Source: Streptomyces sp. NBC_01237
GTDB taxonomy: Bacteria > Actinomycetota > Actinomycetes > Streptomycetales > Streptomycetaceae
DNA length: 64,000 bases
Direction of reading: 5' to 3'
Assembly: GCF_035917275.1 (NCBI RefSeq)
Contig: NZ_CP108508.1
Coordinates: forward strand, 1,550,001 to 1,614,000
Shown: in pieces, positions 31,097 to 47,173 of the stretch
Layout of the letters: the number at the start of each line of letters is the position of its first letter
Position numbering within the stretch: position 1 is the first letter of the stretch
Notes under the pieces: model-generated
Database searches by the model: none
Seen by the model: only the letters and a program-made list of their open reading frames with translations
Told to the model about the DNA's origin: nothing
Made by a program: the position numbers and the translations under genes

Positions 31097-31169
31097 GCGG
31101 ACGTAGCTCAGTTGGTAGAGCGCAACCTTGCCAAGGTTGAGGTCGCCAGTTCGAACCTGGTCGTCCGCT
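31097..31169 (+). tRNA. tRNA-Gly(GCC)
   Basis: 73 nt: acceptor GCGGACG/CGTCCGC, anticodon arm CAACC-TTGCCAA-GGTTG with anticodon GCC, T-arm with GTTCGAAC, discriminator T. First gene of a five-tRNA cluster. Confidence 0.97.
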
Positions 31170-31206
31170 CGCAGAAGGTGGGGGATCTTCCCGAACCCCC
31201 ATCCCT

Positions 31207-31280
31207 GGTGGAGTGGCCGAGAGGCGAGGCAACGGCCTGCAAAGCCGTCTACACGGGTTCAAATCCCGTCTCCACCTCCA
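31207..31280 (+). tRNA. tRNA-Cys(GCA)
   Basis: Acceptor GGTGGAG/CTCCACC, anticodon arm ACGGC-CTGCAAA-GCCGT with anticodon GCA, the U73 discriminator expected for tRNA-Cys, and an encoded CCA (31278-31280), unlike its neighbours. Confidence 0.97.
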
Positions 31281-31281
31281 A

Positions 31282-31353
31282 GGACGATTAGCTCAGCGGG
31301 AGAGCGCTTCCCTGACACGGAAGAGGTCACTGGTTCAATCCCAGTATCGTCCA
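31282..31353 (+). tRNA. tRNA-Val(GAC), copy 1
   Basis: 72 nt; acceptor GGACGAT/ATCGTCC, anticodon arm CTTCC-CTGACAC-GGAAG with anticodon GAC. It starts one base after the CCA of tRNA-Cys. The body is identical to copies 2 and 3; only the acceptor stem differs. Confidence 0.97.
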
Positions 31354-31372
31354 CCGGTCCGCAAGGATCCCC

Positions 31373-31444
31373 GCGCGATTAGCTCAGCGGGAGAGCGCTT
31401 CCCTGACACGGAAGAGGTCACTGGTTCAATCCCAGTATCGCGCA
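31373..31444 (+). tRNA. tRNA-Val(GAC), copy 2
   Basis: 72 nt; acceptor GCGCGAT/ATCGCGC, anticodon GAC. Identical to copy 3. Confidence 0.97.
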
Positions 31445-31467
31445 CGCAGTACACGCAGGGTCACCCT

Positions 31468-31539
31468 GCGCGATTAGCTCAGCGGGAGAGCGCTTCCCTG
31501 ACACGGAAGAGGTCACTGGTTCAATCCCAGTATCGCGCA
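31468..31539 (+). tRNA. tRNA-Val(GAC), copy 3
   Basis: 72 nt; acceptor GCGCGAT/ATCGCGC, anticodon GAC. Identical to copy 2; last gene of the cluster, 7 bases before the terminator. Confidence 0.97.
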
Positions 31540-44134: not shown

Positions 44135-45001
44135 TCAGGACTTGGCGGGGGTACCGAAGGCCGGGATGACCGAGCCCTGGTAGGTGTCCTCGATGAACTT
44201 CTTGACCTCGTCGGAGTTGAGGAGCTTGATGAGCTTCTGGACGCGGGCGTCCTTCTCGTTGCCCTTCTTCACGGCGATGATGTTGGCGTACGGGTTGCCG
44301 TCGGCCTTCTCCAGCGCCAGGGAGTCCTTGGAGGGCTTGAGCTTCGCCTCGATGGCGTAGTTGCCGTTGATGACGGCGGCGTCGACGTCGTTCAGGGCGC
44401 GGGGCACGGTGGCGGCCTCCAGCTCCTTGAACTCCAGGCCCTTCTTGTCGGTGATGTCGCTCAGCTTGGCGTCGGTGCCGACGCCGTCCTTGAGGGTGAT
44501 CAGACCGTTCTGGGCGAGCAGCTGGAGGGCGCGGCCCTCGTTGGTGGTGTCGTTCGGTACGGCGATGGTCCGGCCCGACTTGAGGTCACCCAGGTCCTTG
44601 ACCTTCTTGGAGTACAGGCCCAGGGGCTCCAGGTGCACCGTGCCGACGGAGACGAGGTGGGTGTTGTTCTTCTTGTTGAAGTCGTCCAGGTAGGGCTGGT
44701 GCTGGAAGAAGTTGGCGTCGACCTGGCCGGTCTCGGTGGCGGTGTTCGGCAGGACGTAGTCCGTGAACTCCTTGACCTCCAGCTTGAGACCTTCCTTGGC
44801 CGCCAGGTTCTTCTGGACGAAGCCGAGGATGTCGGCGTGCGGGGTCGGGGACGCGGCGACGACGAGCGCCTTGGAGGTGTCGGCCTTGGCGCCGGTGTCG
44901 CCCTTGGACGCCGGGTCGGAGTCCGTACCGCAGGCGCTGAGGCCCAGGGCGAGGGCGGCGGTGGCGGCGGCAGCCGCGGTGATCTTGATGTTCTTACGCA
45001 C
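44135..45001 (-). CDS. metQ: Methionine-binding lipoprotein MetQ
   Basis: A 288-residue substrate-binding lipoprotein of the methionine ABC importer. The signal ends in a lipobox LGLSACGTDSD (Cys ~24). The mature part shows the NLPA/MetQ pattern: VVAASPTPHADILGFV, FTDYVLPNTATETGQVDANFFQHQPYLDDF, IAVPNDTTNEGRALQLLAQNGLI and AAVINGNYAIEAKL. GTG 45001 is chosen so that the signal begins with basic RKNIK. Third gene of metN-metI-metQ. Confidence 0.96.
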   Translation of the reverse strand: MRKNIKITAAAAATAALALGLSACGTDSDPASKGDTGAKADTSKALVVAASPTPHADILGFVQKNLAAKEGLKLEVKEFTDYVLPNTATETGQVDANFFQHQPYLDDFNKKNNTHLVSVGTVHLEPLGLYSKKVKDLGDLKSGRTIAVPNDTTNEGRALQLLAQNGLITLKDGVGTDAKLSDITDKKGLEFKELEAATVPRALNDVDAAVINGNYAIEAKLKPSKDSLALEKADGNPYANIIAVKKGNEKDARVQKLIKLLNSDEVKKFIEDTYQGSVIPAFGTPAKS

Positions 45002-45080
45002 GAAGAGTGCCTCTTTCGGTGATGAGGTGGTGCGCCCGGACAAGGAGTTCGGGCTTGGGAGGAGAGAGAGTCGGAGGGCG

Positions 45081-45752
45081 TCAGGAGAGGGTGCGGCCCC
45101 GGCGGGCCAGCAGGCGCACCACTCCGTCGCCGATCAGCTGGATCACGGTCACGATGACGATCAGCAGCGCGACGGTGATGAGCATGAACTGGTTGTCGAA
45201 GCGCTGGAATCCGTAGGTGACGGCCTTCGAGCCGAGCCCTTCGCCGCCGACCGCGCCCGCCATCGCCGAGTAGCCGATGAGCACGATGACGGTGGTGGTG
45301 ACGCCGGAGACGAGCGAGGGCAGCGCCTGCGGCAGCAGCACCTTGCGGACGATCGTCGGGATGGAGCCGCCCATCGACTGGACGGCTTCGACGAGCCCGT
45401 GGTCGACTTCGCGGACCGCCGTCTCGACGAGCCGGGCGAAGAACGGGATGGCGCCCACGGCGAGCGGCACGATCATCGCCGTCGGGCCGATGAAGGTGCC
45501 GACGACCCAGGTGGTGAAGGGGATCAGGGCGATCAGCAGGATGATGAACGGCAGCGAGCGGCCGATGTTCACGATCACGCCGATGACCTTGTTGACCGCC
45601 GTGTTCTGCAGGAGTCCGCCCCGGTCGGTGAGGACCAGCAGGACACCGAGCGGAAGGCCGACCAGCACGGTGACGACCGCGGACCACAGCACCATGTAGA
45701 GGGTGTCGACGGTGCCCTGGGTCAGCAGTGGCTGCATTTCGGACCAGGTCAC
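45081..45752 (-). CDS. metI: Methionine ABC transporter permease MetI
   Basis: A 223-residue inner-membrane permease with five hydrophobic spans. The ATPase-coupling EAA loop reads EAVQSMGGSIPTIVRKVLLPQALPSL, and the first span region VDTLYMVLWSAVVTVLVGLPLGV is typical of the MetI family. It overlaps metN by 4 bp, so stoichiometric synthesis by coupling is likely. Confidence 0.96.
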   Translation of the reverse strand: MTWSEMQPLLTQGTVDTLYMVLWSAVVTVLVGLPLGVLLVLTDRGGLLQNTAVNKVIGVIVNIGRSLPFIILLIALIPFTTWVVGTFIGPTAMIVPLAVGAIPFFARLVETAVREVDHGLVEAVQSMGGSIPTIVRKVLLPQALPSLVSGVTTTVIVLIGYSAMAGAVGGEGLGSKAVTYGFQRFDNQFMLITVALLIVIVTVIQLIGDGVVRLLARRGRTLS

Positions 45753-46825
45753 TTGGCGACCTCCTTGGTGAGCGGGGCGGATGCCTGTTCCGGTACGGCG
45801 GGGGCCTCGGCGTCCACGACCTCGGCCTGGAGGCCCTGCTCACGCAGGAAGCCGATCGGTACGACGTTGTCCTCGAAGCGGCCGGGCAGCTCGATGCGCA
45901 TCCGGCCGATCTGGTTGCCGCCGACGGTGTCCATCGCCGCTCCGAGGATGGAGATGTCGATGTTGTACGTACGCGAGAGCTGGGAGATCACCGGTTGGCT
46001 CGCGGCCTCCCCGTGGAAGGTGACGTCGACGACCGTGCGGTCGGGGCCGGAGGCGGCGCCGCCGACCGGGAACAGCTCGTGGGCCAGTTCGGAGCCGGGG
46101 GTGGCGAGCAGTTCCCCGACGGTGCCGGACTCGACGATGCGGCCGCGCCGCATCAGCGCGGCGGAGTCGCAGACCGTCTTGACGACGTCCATCTCGTGCG
46201 TGATCAGCAGCACGGTGAGGCCCAGCTGCTGGTTGAGGTCGCGCAGCAGCGAGAGGATGGAGCGGGTGGTCTCGGGGTCCAGCGCGGAGGTCGCCTCGTC
46301 CGAGAGCAGCACCTTGGGGTCGCCGGCCAGGGCGCGGGCGATACCGACGCGCTGCTTCTGACCGCCGGAGAGCTGGCCGGGGTAGGCCTTCGCCTTGTCG
46401 GTGAGGCCGACGAGGTCGAGAAGTTCGAGTGCCTTGCGGGTGCGGGCCTGGCCGGAGACGCCGAGGATCTCCAACGGGAGTTCCACGTTGTCCCGCACAT
46501 TGCGCGAGGCCAGGAGGTTGAAGTGCTGGAAGACCATGCCGATACGGCTGCGCGCCTCGCGCAGCTCCTGGCCGGCGCGGCGGCCTCGGCCGGCGAGCGC
46601 GGTGAGGTCCTGTCCGGCCACCGTGACGGTGCCGGACGTGGGCCGCTCCAGCAGGTTGACGCAGCGGATCAGGGAGGACTTCCCGGCGCCGCTCTGTCCG
46701 ATGACGCCGTAGACCTCGCCCTCGCGGACGTGCAGGTCGACGCCGTCGAGTGCGGTGACCTCACGGCCGCGCGACTGGTAGACCTTCGTGAGGCCCGTAG
46801 TGGTGATCACAGGGGTTTCCGTCAC
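45749..46825 (-). CDS. metN: Methionine ABC transporter ATP-binding protein MetN
   Basis: A 358-residue ABC ATPase: Walker A GQSGAGKSSLIRCVNLLERPTSG (A-loop region upstream), Q-loop VFQHFNLLASRNVRDNV, signature LSGGQKQRVGIARAL, Walker B VLLSDEATSALD and switch LLITHEMDVV. The C-terminal NIL domain (VVDVTFHGEAASQPVISQLS ... GNQIGRMRIELPG) senses methionine and inhibits transport when it is abundant. GTG 46825 is the most probable start but has no good ribosome site; GTG 46810 is possible. The upstream 200 bp contain a leader ORF and hairpins (see 47028-47114), suggesting control at the leader. Confidence 0.95.
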   Translation of the reverse strand: MTETPVITTTGLTKVYQSRGREVTALDGVDLHVREGEVYGVIGQSGAGKSSLIRCVNLLERPTSGTVTVAGQDLTALAGRGRRAGQELREARSRIGMVFQHFNLLASRNVRDNVELPLEILGVSGQARTRKALELLDLVGLTDKAKAYPGQLSGGQKQRVGIARALAGDPKVLLSDEATSALDPETTRSILSLLRDLNQQLGLTVLLITHEMDVVKTVCDSAALMRRGRIVESGTVGELLATPGSELAHELFPVGGAASGPDRTVVDVTFHGEAASQPVISQLSRTYNIDISILGAAMDTVGGNQIGRMRIELPGRFEDNVVPIGFLREQGLQAEVVDAEAPAVPEQASAPLTKEVAK

Positions 46826-47027
46826 TGTCGAGTGCGCGGCGCGGTGTCCGCCGGGCACGGGGCATTCGTCTGAAGAGACTGTTCGGGCTGGTCTGCCGGT
46901 GGGTCTCGGCATGGCCGGCCGCGGCGGAAGGCCGACAGGCAGCGCATGCTCGGGCGGGCTCGTTCCATTGGGTGCAAACGGCGCAGGCTCGGTCTCGCTT
47001 CGGGGCGCGAGGCTCAGGCTGGGGCCC

Positions 47028-47114
47028 TCAGAAGGCGCGCATTCGACACATACAACGAGCACCGGGCGTGCTGATCGCCTCGGTCGCAAGGATGCGGCTG
47101 CTCGTCGTGGTCAT
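47028..47114 (-). CDS. Putative regulatory leader peptide (28 residues) upstream of metNIQ
   Basis: A short frame from ATG 47114 to TGA 47028. It begins MTTTSSRILATEAIS and ends GARCMCRMRAF, with two Cys and two Met codons within six codons near the 3' end. These and adjacent codons are ones Streptomyces rarely uses (GCT, CGT, TGT, TGT, CGA). The TGA is ~200 nt before metN, and the gap can form several hairpins. I infer a sulfur-amino-acid-responsive attenuator: ribosome stalling at Cys/Met codons would change leader folding. The ribosome site (TTGGGAC next to the ATG) is weak, so translation is unproven. Confidence 0.5.
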   Translation of the reverse strand: MTTTSSRILATEAISTPGARCMCRMRAF

Positions 47115-47152
47115 GTCCCAAGTAAAACAGACGTAACGACTCCCCGATCCCC

Positions 47153-47173
47153 GCTGTCCGGATAGCGGACAGC
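47153..47173. promoter_or_regulatory. Perfect palindrome upstream of the metNIQ leader (possible operator)
   Basis: GCTGTCCG and CGGACAGC around a 5-base spacer (GATAG on the plus strand), 39 bp upstream of the leader ORF start and near the likely metNIQ promoter. The cognate regulator is unknown. Confidence 0.4.

Follow-up and report, generated by a model that had tools for sequence, protein, structure and literature searches.

The closest described counterpart of the element analysed here is metL (SLIV_29928) of Streptomyces lividans TK24, a predicted attenuator located before metNIQ and encoding the peptide MSTTSDRTPATEATTTPGARCMCRRMCAF, followed by a stop codon (Droste et al. 2021; PMC8079986). 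In the accessible part of that publication, metL is presented with a leaderless mapped start, several methionines and threonines, and without a typical Rho-independent terminator. In mycobacteria, leaderless polycysteine ORFs (Canestrari et al. 2020) are described, in the available portions of PMC9031893 and PMC13236596, as attenuators dependent on cysteine supply. Upstream of cysS in Rhodobacterales, the uORFC-8-2 motif carries a leader ORF with conserved Cys codons within the first stem of a structured RNA whose last element is a U-run intrinsic terminator, and the excerpted text mentions a three-stem junction as possible in rare cases (PMC8632094). Leaders with Cys codons near the stop and no obvious terminator, for which Rho was suggested, were reported in acnes and upstream of cbs in B. 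longum by Seliverstov et al. (2005), who suggested Rho-type termination for mycobacterial cys leaders as well and, as far as the accessible text goes, found no conserved structure upstream of the methionine operons of Actinobacteria (PMC1262725).

We analysed a stretch of 64,000 nucleotides (the window) in which a short ORF precedes metNIQ. This ORF resembles S. lividans metL in its position, its probably leaderless start and its near-identical peptide, and MSTTSDRTPATEATTTPGARCMCRRMCAF itself occurs among the loci compared here. A predicted leader of this kind is already known: the initial annotation took it for undescribed, which is wrong, metL having been in print since 2021 (PMC8079986). 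The additions made here are a fold overlapping the ORF, a tail of Cys and Met codons and a range across the family. Whereas the available description of metL concerns Met and Thr, a single species and downstream hairpins, with no fold in the ORF, the leader examined here has Cys as its most enriched residue, a predicted fold, a spread over the family and a promoter palindrome. Like the mycobacterial polycysteine ORFs, it is short, actinobacterial and probably leaderless, with Cys codons ahead of other genes. Unlike their contiguous Cys codons, those of the present ORF are not contiguous and mostly alternate with Met and Arg codons; moreover, this ORF putatively controls a methionine importer and is overlapped by a conserved predicted fold. 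The placement of a Cys-codon leader ORF in a structured RNA recalls uORFC-8-2, but the terminator of that motif has no equivalent in the metN leader, which combines three predicted helices in the ORF with Met codons. Cys codons near the stop and the lack of an obvious terminator are shared with the leaders of Seliverstov et al., although these precede other genes than metN. In the open-licence literature, we found no description of cysteine as control residue of a metN leader or of the spread of this leader. We propose, from comparative sequence evidence, that the leader is probably a ribosome-position sensor of Cys- and Met-tRNA supply controlling metNIQ.

The leader ORF and its Cys/Met tail

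The genes and the leader elements lie on the same strand:

44135..45043 (-), metQ, NlpA-type lipoprotein (NCBIfam, Pfam)
45081..45752 (-), metI, permease (NCBIfam, Pfam)
45749..46810 (-), metN, methionine ABC transporter ATPase with NIL domain (NCBIfam, Pfam)
46808..46810 (-), likely metN start codon GTG, with a weak Shine-Dalgarno GGA at 46818-46820
47028..47114 (-), leader ORF of metL type, product MTTTSSRILATEAISTPGARCMCRMRAF followed by a stop (conservation and codon analyses)
47040..47054 (-), candidate control codons TGT ATG TGT CGA ATG (Cys-Met-Cys-Arg-Met), the first TGT lying within the 3' strand of helix P1

The MetN, MetI and MetQ models rank first for the three downstream genes, with NCBIfam scores under the curated cut-offs. 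The GTG at 46810 (VITTTGLTK) is more likely to be the metN start than the GTG at 46828 because the latter reads GCG in several species. Five tRNA genes are clustered elsewhere in the window, at 31097-31539 on the + strand.

The initial annotation had described a 28-codon ORF on the metN strand ending in GARCMCRMRAF, using rare codons, followed by some 200 nt with potential stems before metN and lacking a SAM riboswitch core. These statements hold: the translation of 47114-47028 has this length and C-terminus, the relative usage of the codons concerned is low in six genes of the window (TGT 0.12, CGT 0.08, CGA 0.04, GCT 0.02, GGT 0.10, CTT 0.02), hairpins are predicted in the spacer and no Rfam riboswitch family matched. 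Neither NCBIfam nor Pfam contains a family matching the window peptide, and NCBIfam contains none matching the peptides of four relatives.

The peptide is conserved, an intact equivalent ORF being present upstream of metN in 166 of 166 loci (own genome and near-duplicates included). These loci comprise 17 contigs of named organisms (L002-L018) and 149 further genomes (30 plus 119 of 120 fetched), L231 being omitted as a repeat of L109. A regular expression recovered 162 of the leaders, representing 117 distinct ORFs; the other four were read directly (Kitasatospora L014 and L016, Actinomadura L017 and Streptomyces L190). A larger set of 221 loci adds to the 162 another 59 of 63 more distant loci, two of the remainder having no metN start in the stretch and two failing the ORF rule. 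The ORF at 47028-47114 (-) is real, far beyond chance.

Of 200 Streptomycetaceae genomes scanned with a covariance model of the leader RNA, 121 match at E up to 0.1, and these represent 13 of 17 genera; for 12 of them the match lies only between E 0.001 and 0.1. In a class-wide draw, 45 of 394 genomes match: 39 belong to the own genus, three to one other family (f17), with leaders resembling that of Actinomadura rubrisoli (L017), and three matches at E near 0.1 are counted as chance. MetN was searched in 25 genomes, namely 20 of the 79 model-negative family genomes, four Streptomyces with weak MetN matches and one model-negative genome of f17. A metN orthologue was found in 11; the other 14 (ten model-negative, four not scanned with the model) yielded generic ABC ATPases only. 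Ten of these 11 metN-bearing genomes without a match to the RNA model have an intact diverged leader, chosen by eye among Cys-rich short ORFs behind a -10-like string. The eleventh (L344) has metN and a truncated leader in which the tail RMCRMCA and its stop are kept while promoter and start are gone. The same rule by eye gave no leader at the metN loci of Agrococcus, Brevibacterium and Cellulomonas. A genome search with the tail pattern, meant to reveal extra leaders, matched 12 times, fewer than its reversed control (26), and so showed no signal besides the true site.

Each of the 157 distinct peptides has at least one Cys and at least one Met in its last 14 residues. Cys, the most enriched residue, makes up 20.7% of this tail against 2.6% elsewhere, Met 15.1% against 1.8%, and Arg 20.4% against 8.5% in the N-terminal part. 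Once four ORFs carrying an inserted codon are left out, the first set has 109 in-register ORFs: 102 of them retain the first Cys, 94 the Met after it and 103 the second Cys, and codons that have replaced this Met still end in G. Most peptides contain CxC or CC, the C-x-C alternation in most and CC only in some relatives. Distant relatives retain Cys and Met in the tail, as in MTATTTCTPTGAAPAGERCMCCRMCHC, MTAARSCLAHRSLTQRAGRMCCRRMCDR and MFTTAHTSGTAATATGCRRMCRSCQICRMCGC, and have diverged N-terminal parts; in A. rubrisoli this part is unrelated and RMCCRRMCDR is retained. The rare Arg codon CGA (47043-47045), which lies outside the helices found, precedes ATG in 168 of 172 distinct ORFs.

The proposal of the initial annotation, a Cys/Met leader controlling metNIQ, gains from the linkage of a conserved, probably leaderless ORF to metN and from the survival of Cys and Met codons in distant relatives. 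The codons enriched in the tail are those of amino acids tied to the operon, and the leader is read here as a joint sulfur-amino-acid sensor in which Cys would count no less than Met. A control role for threonine is unlikely, since Thr codons lie mostly in the N-terminal part.

A predicted RNA fold overlapping the ORF

The coding sequence is predicted to form a compact RNA domain (numbering from nt 1 = 47114), whose helices derive from prediction and comparison rather than from probing; pair probabilities are averages of the predicted ensemble over 159 distinct sequences:

47052..47108 (-), three-helix RNA domain inside the ORF (predicted pairing and covariation counts)
P1 (-), nt 7-15 with 55-63, mean pair probability 0.59-0.94
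P2 (-), nt 19-22 with 27-30, mean pair probability 0.69-0.96
P3 (-), nt 31-39 with 47-54, mean pair probability 0.80-1.00

The closing helix P1 is predicted to pair the start of the ORF with the first control codons. The T-ending codons GGT, GCT, CGT and TGT place a U opposite an A or G of the 5' part of the ORF, and this pairing, rather than slow decoding, accounts for most of the rare codons (GGT, GCT, CGT and the first TGT). The second TGT, CTT and CGA are not so explained. Pairing of the first two control codons and the two codons before them with nt 4-24 averages 0.50, 0.41, 0.42 and 0.35 in four groups of 120, 25, 18 and 9 distinct ORFs, sorted by peptide patterns set in this analysis, against 0.08-0.12 for synonymous variants; the median share of variants reaching the real pairing is 0.00, 0.05, 0.09 and 0.07. 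The minimum free energy of the leader is not exceptional (168 of 1000 synonymous variants are as low), its mean z of -0.74 over 60 of the 117 distinct leaders being weak. As the whole leader is only modestly more stable than its variants, the constraint concerns which bases pair.

The strength of the covariation depends on the alignment. In one of 77 diverse members, obtained from 78 sources searched and fitted to the model, which leans it towards the structure, 25 of the 26 pairs of P1-P3 and of hairpin B in the spacer show two-sided changes, with 152 cells against 38.0 +/- 5.8 in shuffles and a covariation score of 0.240 against at most 0.044 with the strands slid. When 60 sequences are aligned without fitting to the structure, such changes are confined to 3 of the 26 pairs. 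Under a tree-based null, pair 105-120 of hairpin B alone is individually significant (E 0.03) and none is in P1-P3, the next lowest structure pairs being 14-56 (E 1.7) and 104-121 (E 2.3); in the Streptomyces-dominated alignment of 159 sequences no pairing-consistent pair is significant under this null. RNAalifold, applied to 156 and 60 sequences, recovers P2, P3 and the three inner pairs of P1, leaves out the six outer pairs of P1 and hairpin B, and proposes an alternative in which the second half of the leader pairs with the hairpin B segment; in one of these runs, two-sided change affects 3 of 27 pairs, two in P3 and one in the alternative half. Pair 14-56 illustrates how folding and coding interact: among the 190 of 221 loci fitting the rule, 162 combine AGC at codon 5 with GCT, 22 combine AAC with GTT or GTC and 6 have other combinations, so that both amino acids change and one base pair is kept, few independent events lying behind these counts.

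Third positions are as fixed as the others in the 117 distinct ORFs (codon 4 ACG in 116, codon 7 CGC in 116, codon 11 ACC in 117), while codons 6, 8, 9, 14 and 15 vary with free amino acid change; the conservation therefore operates at the RNA level. For this reason, the expectation that the C-M-C-R-M codons but not their flanks would be conserved fails within Streptomyces, where flanks and third positions are equally conserved owing to the structured RNA within the ORF. The first Cys codon nevertheless suggests selection on Cys itself: it is TGT, whose U wobbles with G, in 97 of 109 in-register ORFs and the better-pairing CGT in 3. The ORF is kept open through insertions of 3 to 12 bases in the tail. 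The distance between the stop and hairpin B, by contrast, is not tied to one frame, with remainders 0/1/2 in 120/35/38 of the 193 loci, out of 221, having the hairpin core. Coding and folding therefore both seem to constrain the segment, which would make it a clear case of a single RNA subject to the two.

The presence, next to methionine-importer genes, of a conserved domain of three helices with near-invariant nucleotides could also suggest a ligand-binding riboswitch upstream of metNIQ, the ORF being a passenger or mere output device. This seems to us quite improbable. The ORF is intact at the metN loci examined save the truncated L344, the Cys and Met codons outlast the sequence of the fold in distant relatives, and the predicted junction has only three unpaired bases (nt 16-18), two of them freely varying. 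Rfam searches at both thresholds returned no family, with a single other-strand match at chance level (E 1.9); the P1-P3 fold has no match in Rfam 15 and we found no description of it in the open-licence literature.

The conservation of residues within the genus, with RM-C or RM-R present in all 157 distinct peptides (a pattern demanded by the second search rule) and the near-constant CGA-ATG, might alternatively indicate an arrest peptide, in which a small molecule or condition would cause the nascent chain itself to stall the ribosome. The peptide varies where the RNA forms loops and is constant, third codon positions included, where it forms stems, so that its conservation follows RNA pairing, and the N-terminal part is unrelated in distant relatives; we consider such arrest very unlikely.

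Promoter, spacer and candidate output

Two promoter elements lie upstream of the ORF:

47121..47126 (-), -10 hexamer TTTACT of a putative leaderless promoter (spacing and comparison)
47155..47171 (-), DNA palindrome TGTCC-N7-GGACA, candidate operator at about -41 to -57 from the predicted start

In all 221 loci the end of the -10 hexamer lies 6 or 7 nt ahead of the ATG (for 59 of them the search rule itself required a -10-like string), and its sequence is TTTACT in 212. A Shine-Dalgarno-like string is found in only one of the 221 leaders, and a scan with the sigma-70 consensus gave no promoter at the leader. With its start 6-7 nt after the hexamer and no Shine-Dalgarno site, the ORF is probably leaderless.

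The palindrome raises the possibility that control operates mainly at the promoter, through a protein binding this operator or through SenR, the leader adding little. Within 70 nt upstream of the leader ATG, GTCC-N5-9-GGAC is present in 197 of 221 loci where 1.85 are expected from shuffles. In S. coelicolor, according to the accessible part of PMC4991794, a mutant of the SenR system shows deregulated stress induction of methionine-uptake genes, and SCO1559 has a predicted SenR site 31 nt upstream. Promoter control of this sort leaves unexplained the persistence of the Cys and Met codons, the ORF and the helices in the transcribed leader, and as the main mechanism we judge it to have little chance of being correct. 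The exact palindrome pattern occurs once in the own genome; a longer pattern with at most one mismatch gives 16 sites there against 3 for the reversed control.

The sensor reading requires an output downstream of the ORF, where the following elements are found:

46994..47011 (-), hairpin B, CTCGC-GCCCCGAA-GCGAG, near-invariant loop, without U-tract
46864..47027 (-), C-rich, G-poor spacer, candidate Rho-loading region (from base composition)
46832..46858 (-), hairpin P5 (GUGC..GGCG / CGCC..GCAC), immediately preceding the metN ribosome site

The core of hairpin B is lacking in some members from related genera. Its nt 104-108 pair with 117-121 at mean probabilities of 0.84-0.90 over the 159 sequences, and its predicted probability (0.82-0.93) is unchanged by ribosome position. 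Its loop is the same in A. rubrisoli; the near-constancy of GCCCCGAA from Streptomyces to Actinomadura without a U-tract suggests an RNA or protein partner. A second exact hairpin B core in the genome falls in an apparently unrelated coding region. P5 (nt 257-266 with 274-283) has mean probabilities of 0.37-0.70 when free and 0.51-0.90 with the leader masked.

No U-tract terminator was found between the ORF and metN, the sole terminator-like match lying inside the ORF's own fold, and no terminator/antiterminator pair was found in the leader. Given this lack and the indifference of hairpin B to ribosome position, a classical trp-type transcription attenuator is not supported. A candidate antiterminator pairing GAGG:CCUC was dropped by eye, GAGG not following a CUC to CCC change in hairpin B. 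A leader-metN helix, GUCGA/UCGAC, has a predicted mean probability of about 0.5; the leader-metN duplex does not outperform shuffles (mean z -0.63, -0.56, -0.50 and +0.85 in four groups), and reading the sequences listed gave no compensatory change. Opening of the metN ribosome site is not raised by stalling in the predictions (0.451 free, 0.438 stalled); of the 221 loci, 43 gain and 89 lose openness at the metN start.

The spacer offers another possibility. C exceeds G in 221 of 221 spacers, with a median ratio of 1.57 (1.40 in the own spacer, a value reached by 6.4% of the 200-mers of the window on both strands) and mean contents of 0.453 for C and 0.291 for G. Since neither a U-tract terminator after the ORF nor switching at the metN start is seen, we favour a Rho-type output.

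A probable ribosome-position sensor before metNIQ

In the mechanism that we consider probable, transcription would start at the A of the leader ATG and a ribosome would load immediately, opening the 5' strand of P1. With plentiful Cys-tRNA, and probably Met-tRNA, it would traverse the C-terminal Cys and Met codons and depart at the stop; in a shortage, it would stall on these codons and hold the leader RNA open, and metNIQ expression would rise. P1 would reset the RNA after each passage and may impede fresh loading at the 5' end. The output would most likely be the loss of transcription-translation coupling, followed by early Rho-type termination in the C-rich spacer. Direct support exists for the ORF and its conservation, for the promoter spacing and for the enrichment of Cys and Met codons, and support by prediction and comparison for the helices. 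The leaderless start in S. lividans is taken from the literature; that the ORF is translated, that ribosomes stall on it, which way expression then changes and how the output is produced are inferred.

A more specific version is tentative and, in our estimation, rather doubtful. It pictures a self-gating sulfur sensor in which one helix would pair the start of a leaderless ORF with its own Cys and Met codons and gate ribosome entry, a stalled ribosome holding it open. Cys and Met would be read together, neither a U-tract terminator nor start-site sequestration would be involved, and the element would form an RNA class outside Rfam extending from Streptomycetaceae to Actinomadura.

In S. coelicolor, metN, metI and metQ rise 5.2-, 3.5- and 2.3-fold under oxidative stress alongside cysteine genes, with a link to SenR (PMC4991794, accessible part). 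The joint induction with cysteine genes is consistent with the sensor reading, if indirectly; the SenR link favours promoter control. By analogy, the S. coelicolor ilvB leader, whose codon changes were without regulatory effect as cited by Seliverstov et al. (PMC1262725, available text), may serve as a warning for leaders of such kind. The overlapping fold would likewise make plain codon-swap experiments misleading unless pairing is preserved.

If the sensor reading is true, a sulfur-amino-acid attenuator precedes metN in nearly every metN-bearing Streptomycetaceae genome examined, and would account for the way in which antibiotic producers adjust methionine uptake with no SAM riboswitch at metNIQ. 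The published methionine/threonine label would then need to shift towards cysteine and methionine.

The frequent CxC or CC motifs and the oxidative-stress induction of S. coelicolor metNIQ could still point to a small Cys-rich protein with its own job in metal or redox binding, placed before metN for co-expression, but this is the least probable explanation, given that peptide length and Cys spacing vary, the ORF overlaps an RNA fold and the element keeps its place beside metN, as a single copy in 118 of the 121 model-positive Streptomycetaceae genomes.
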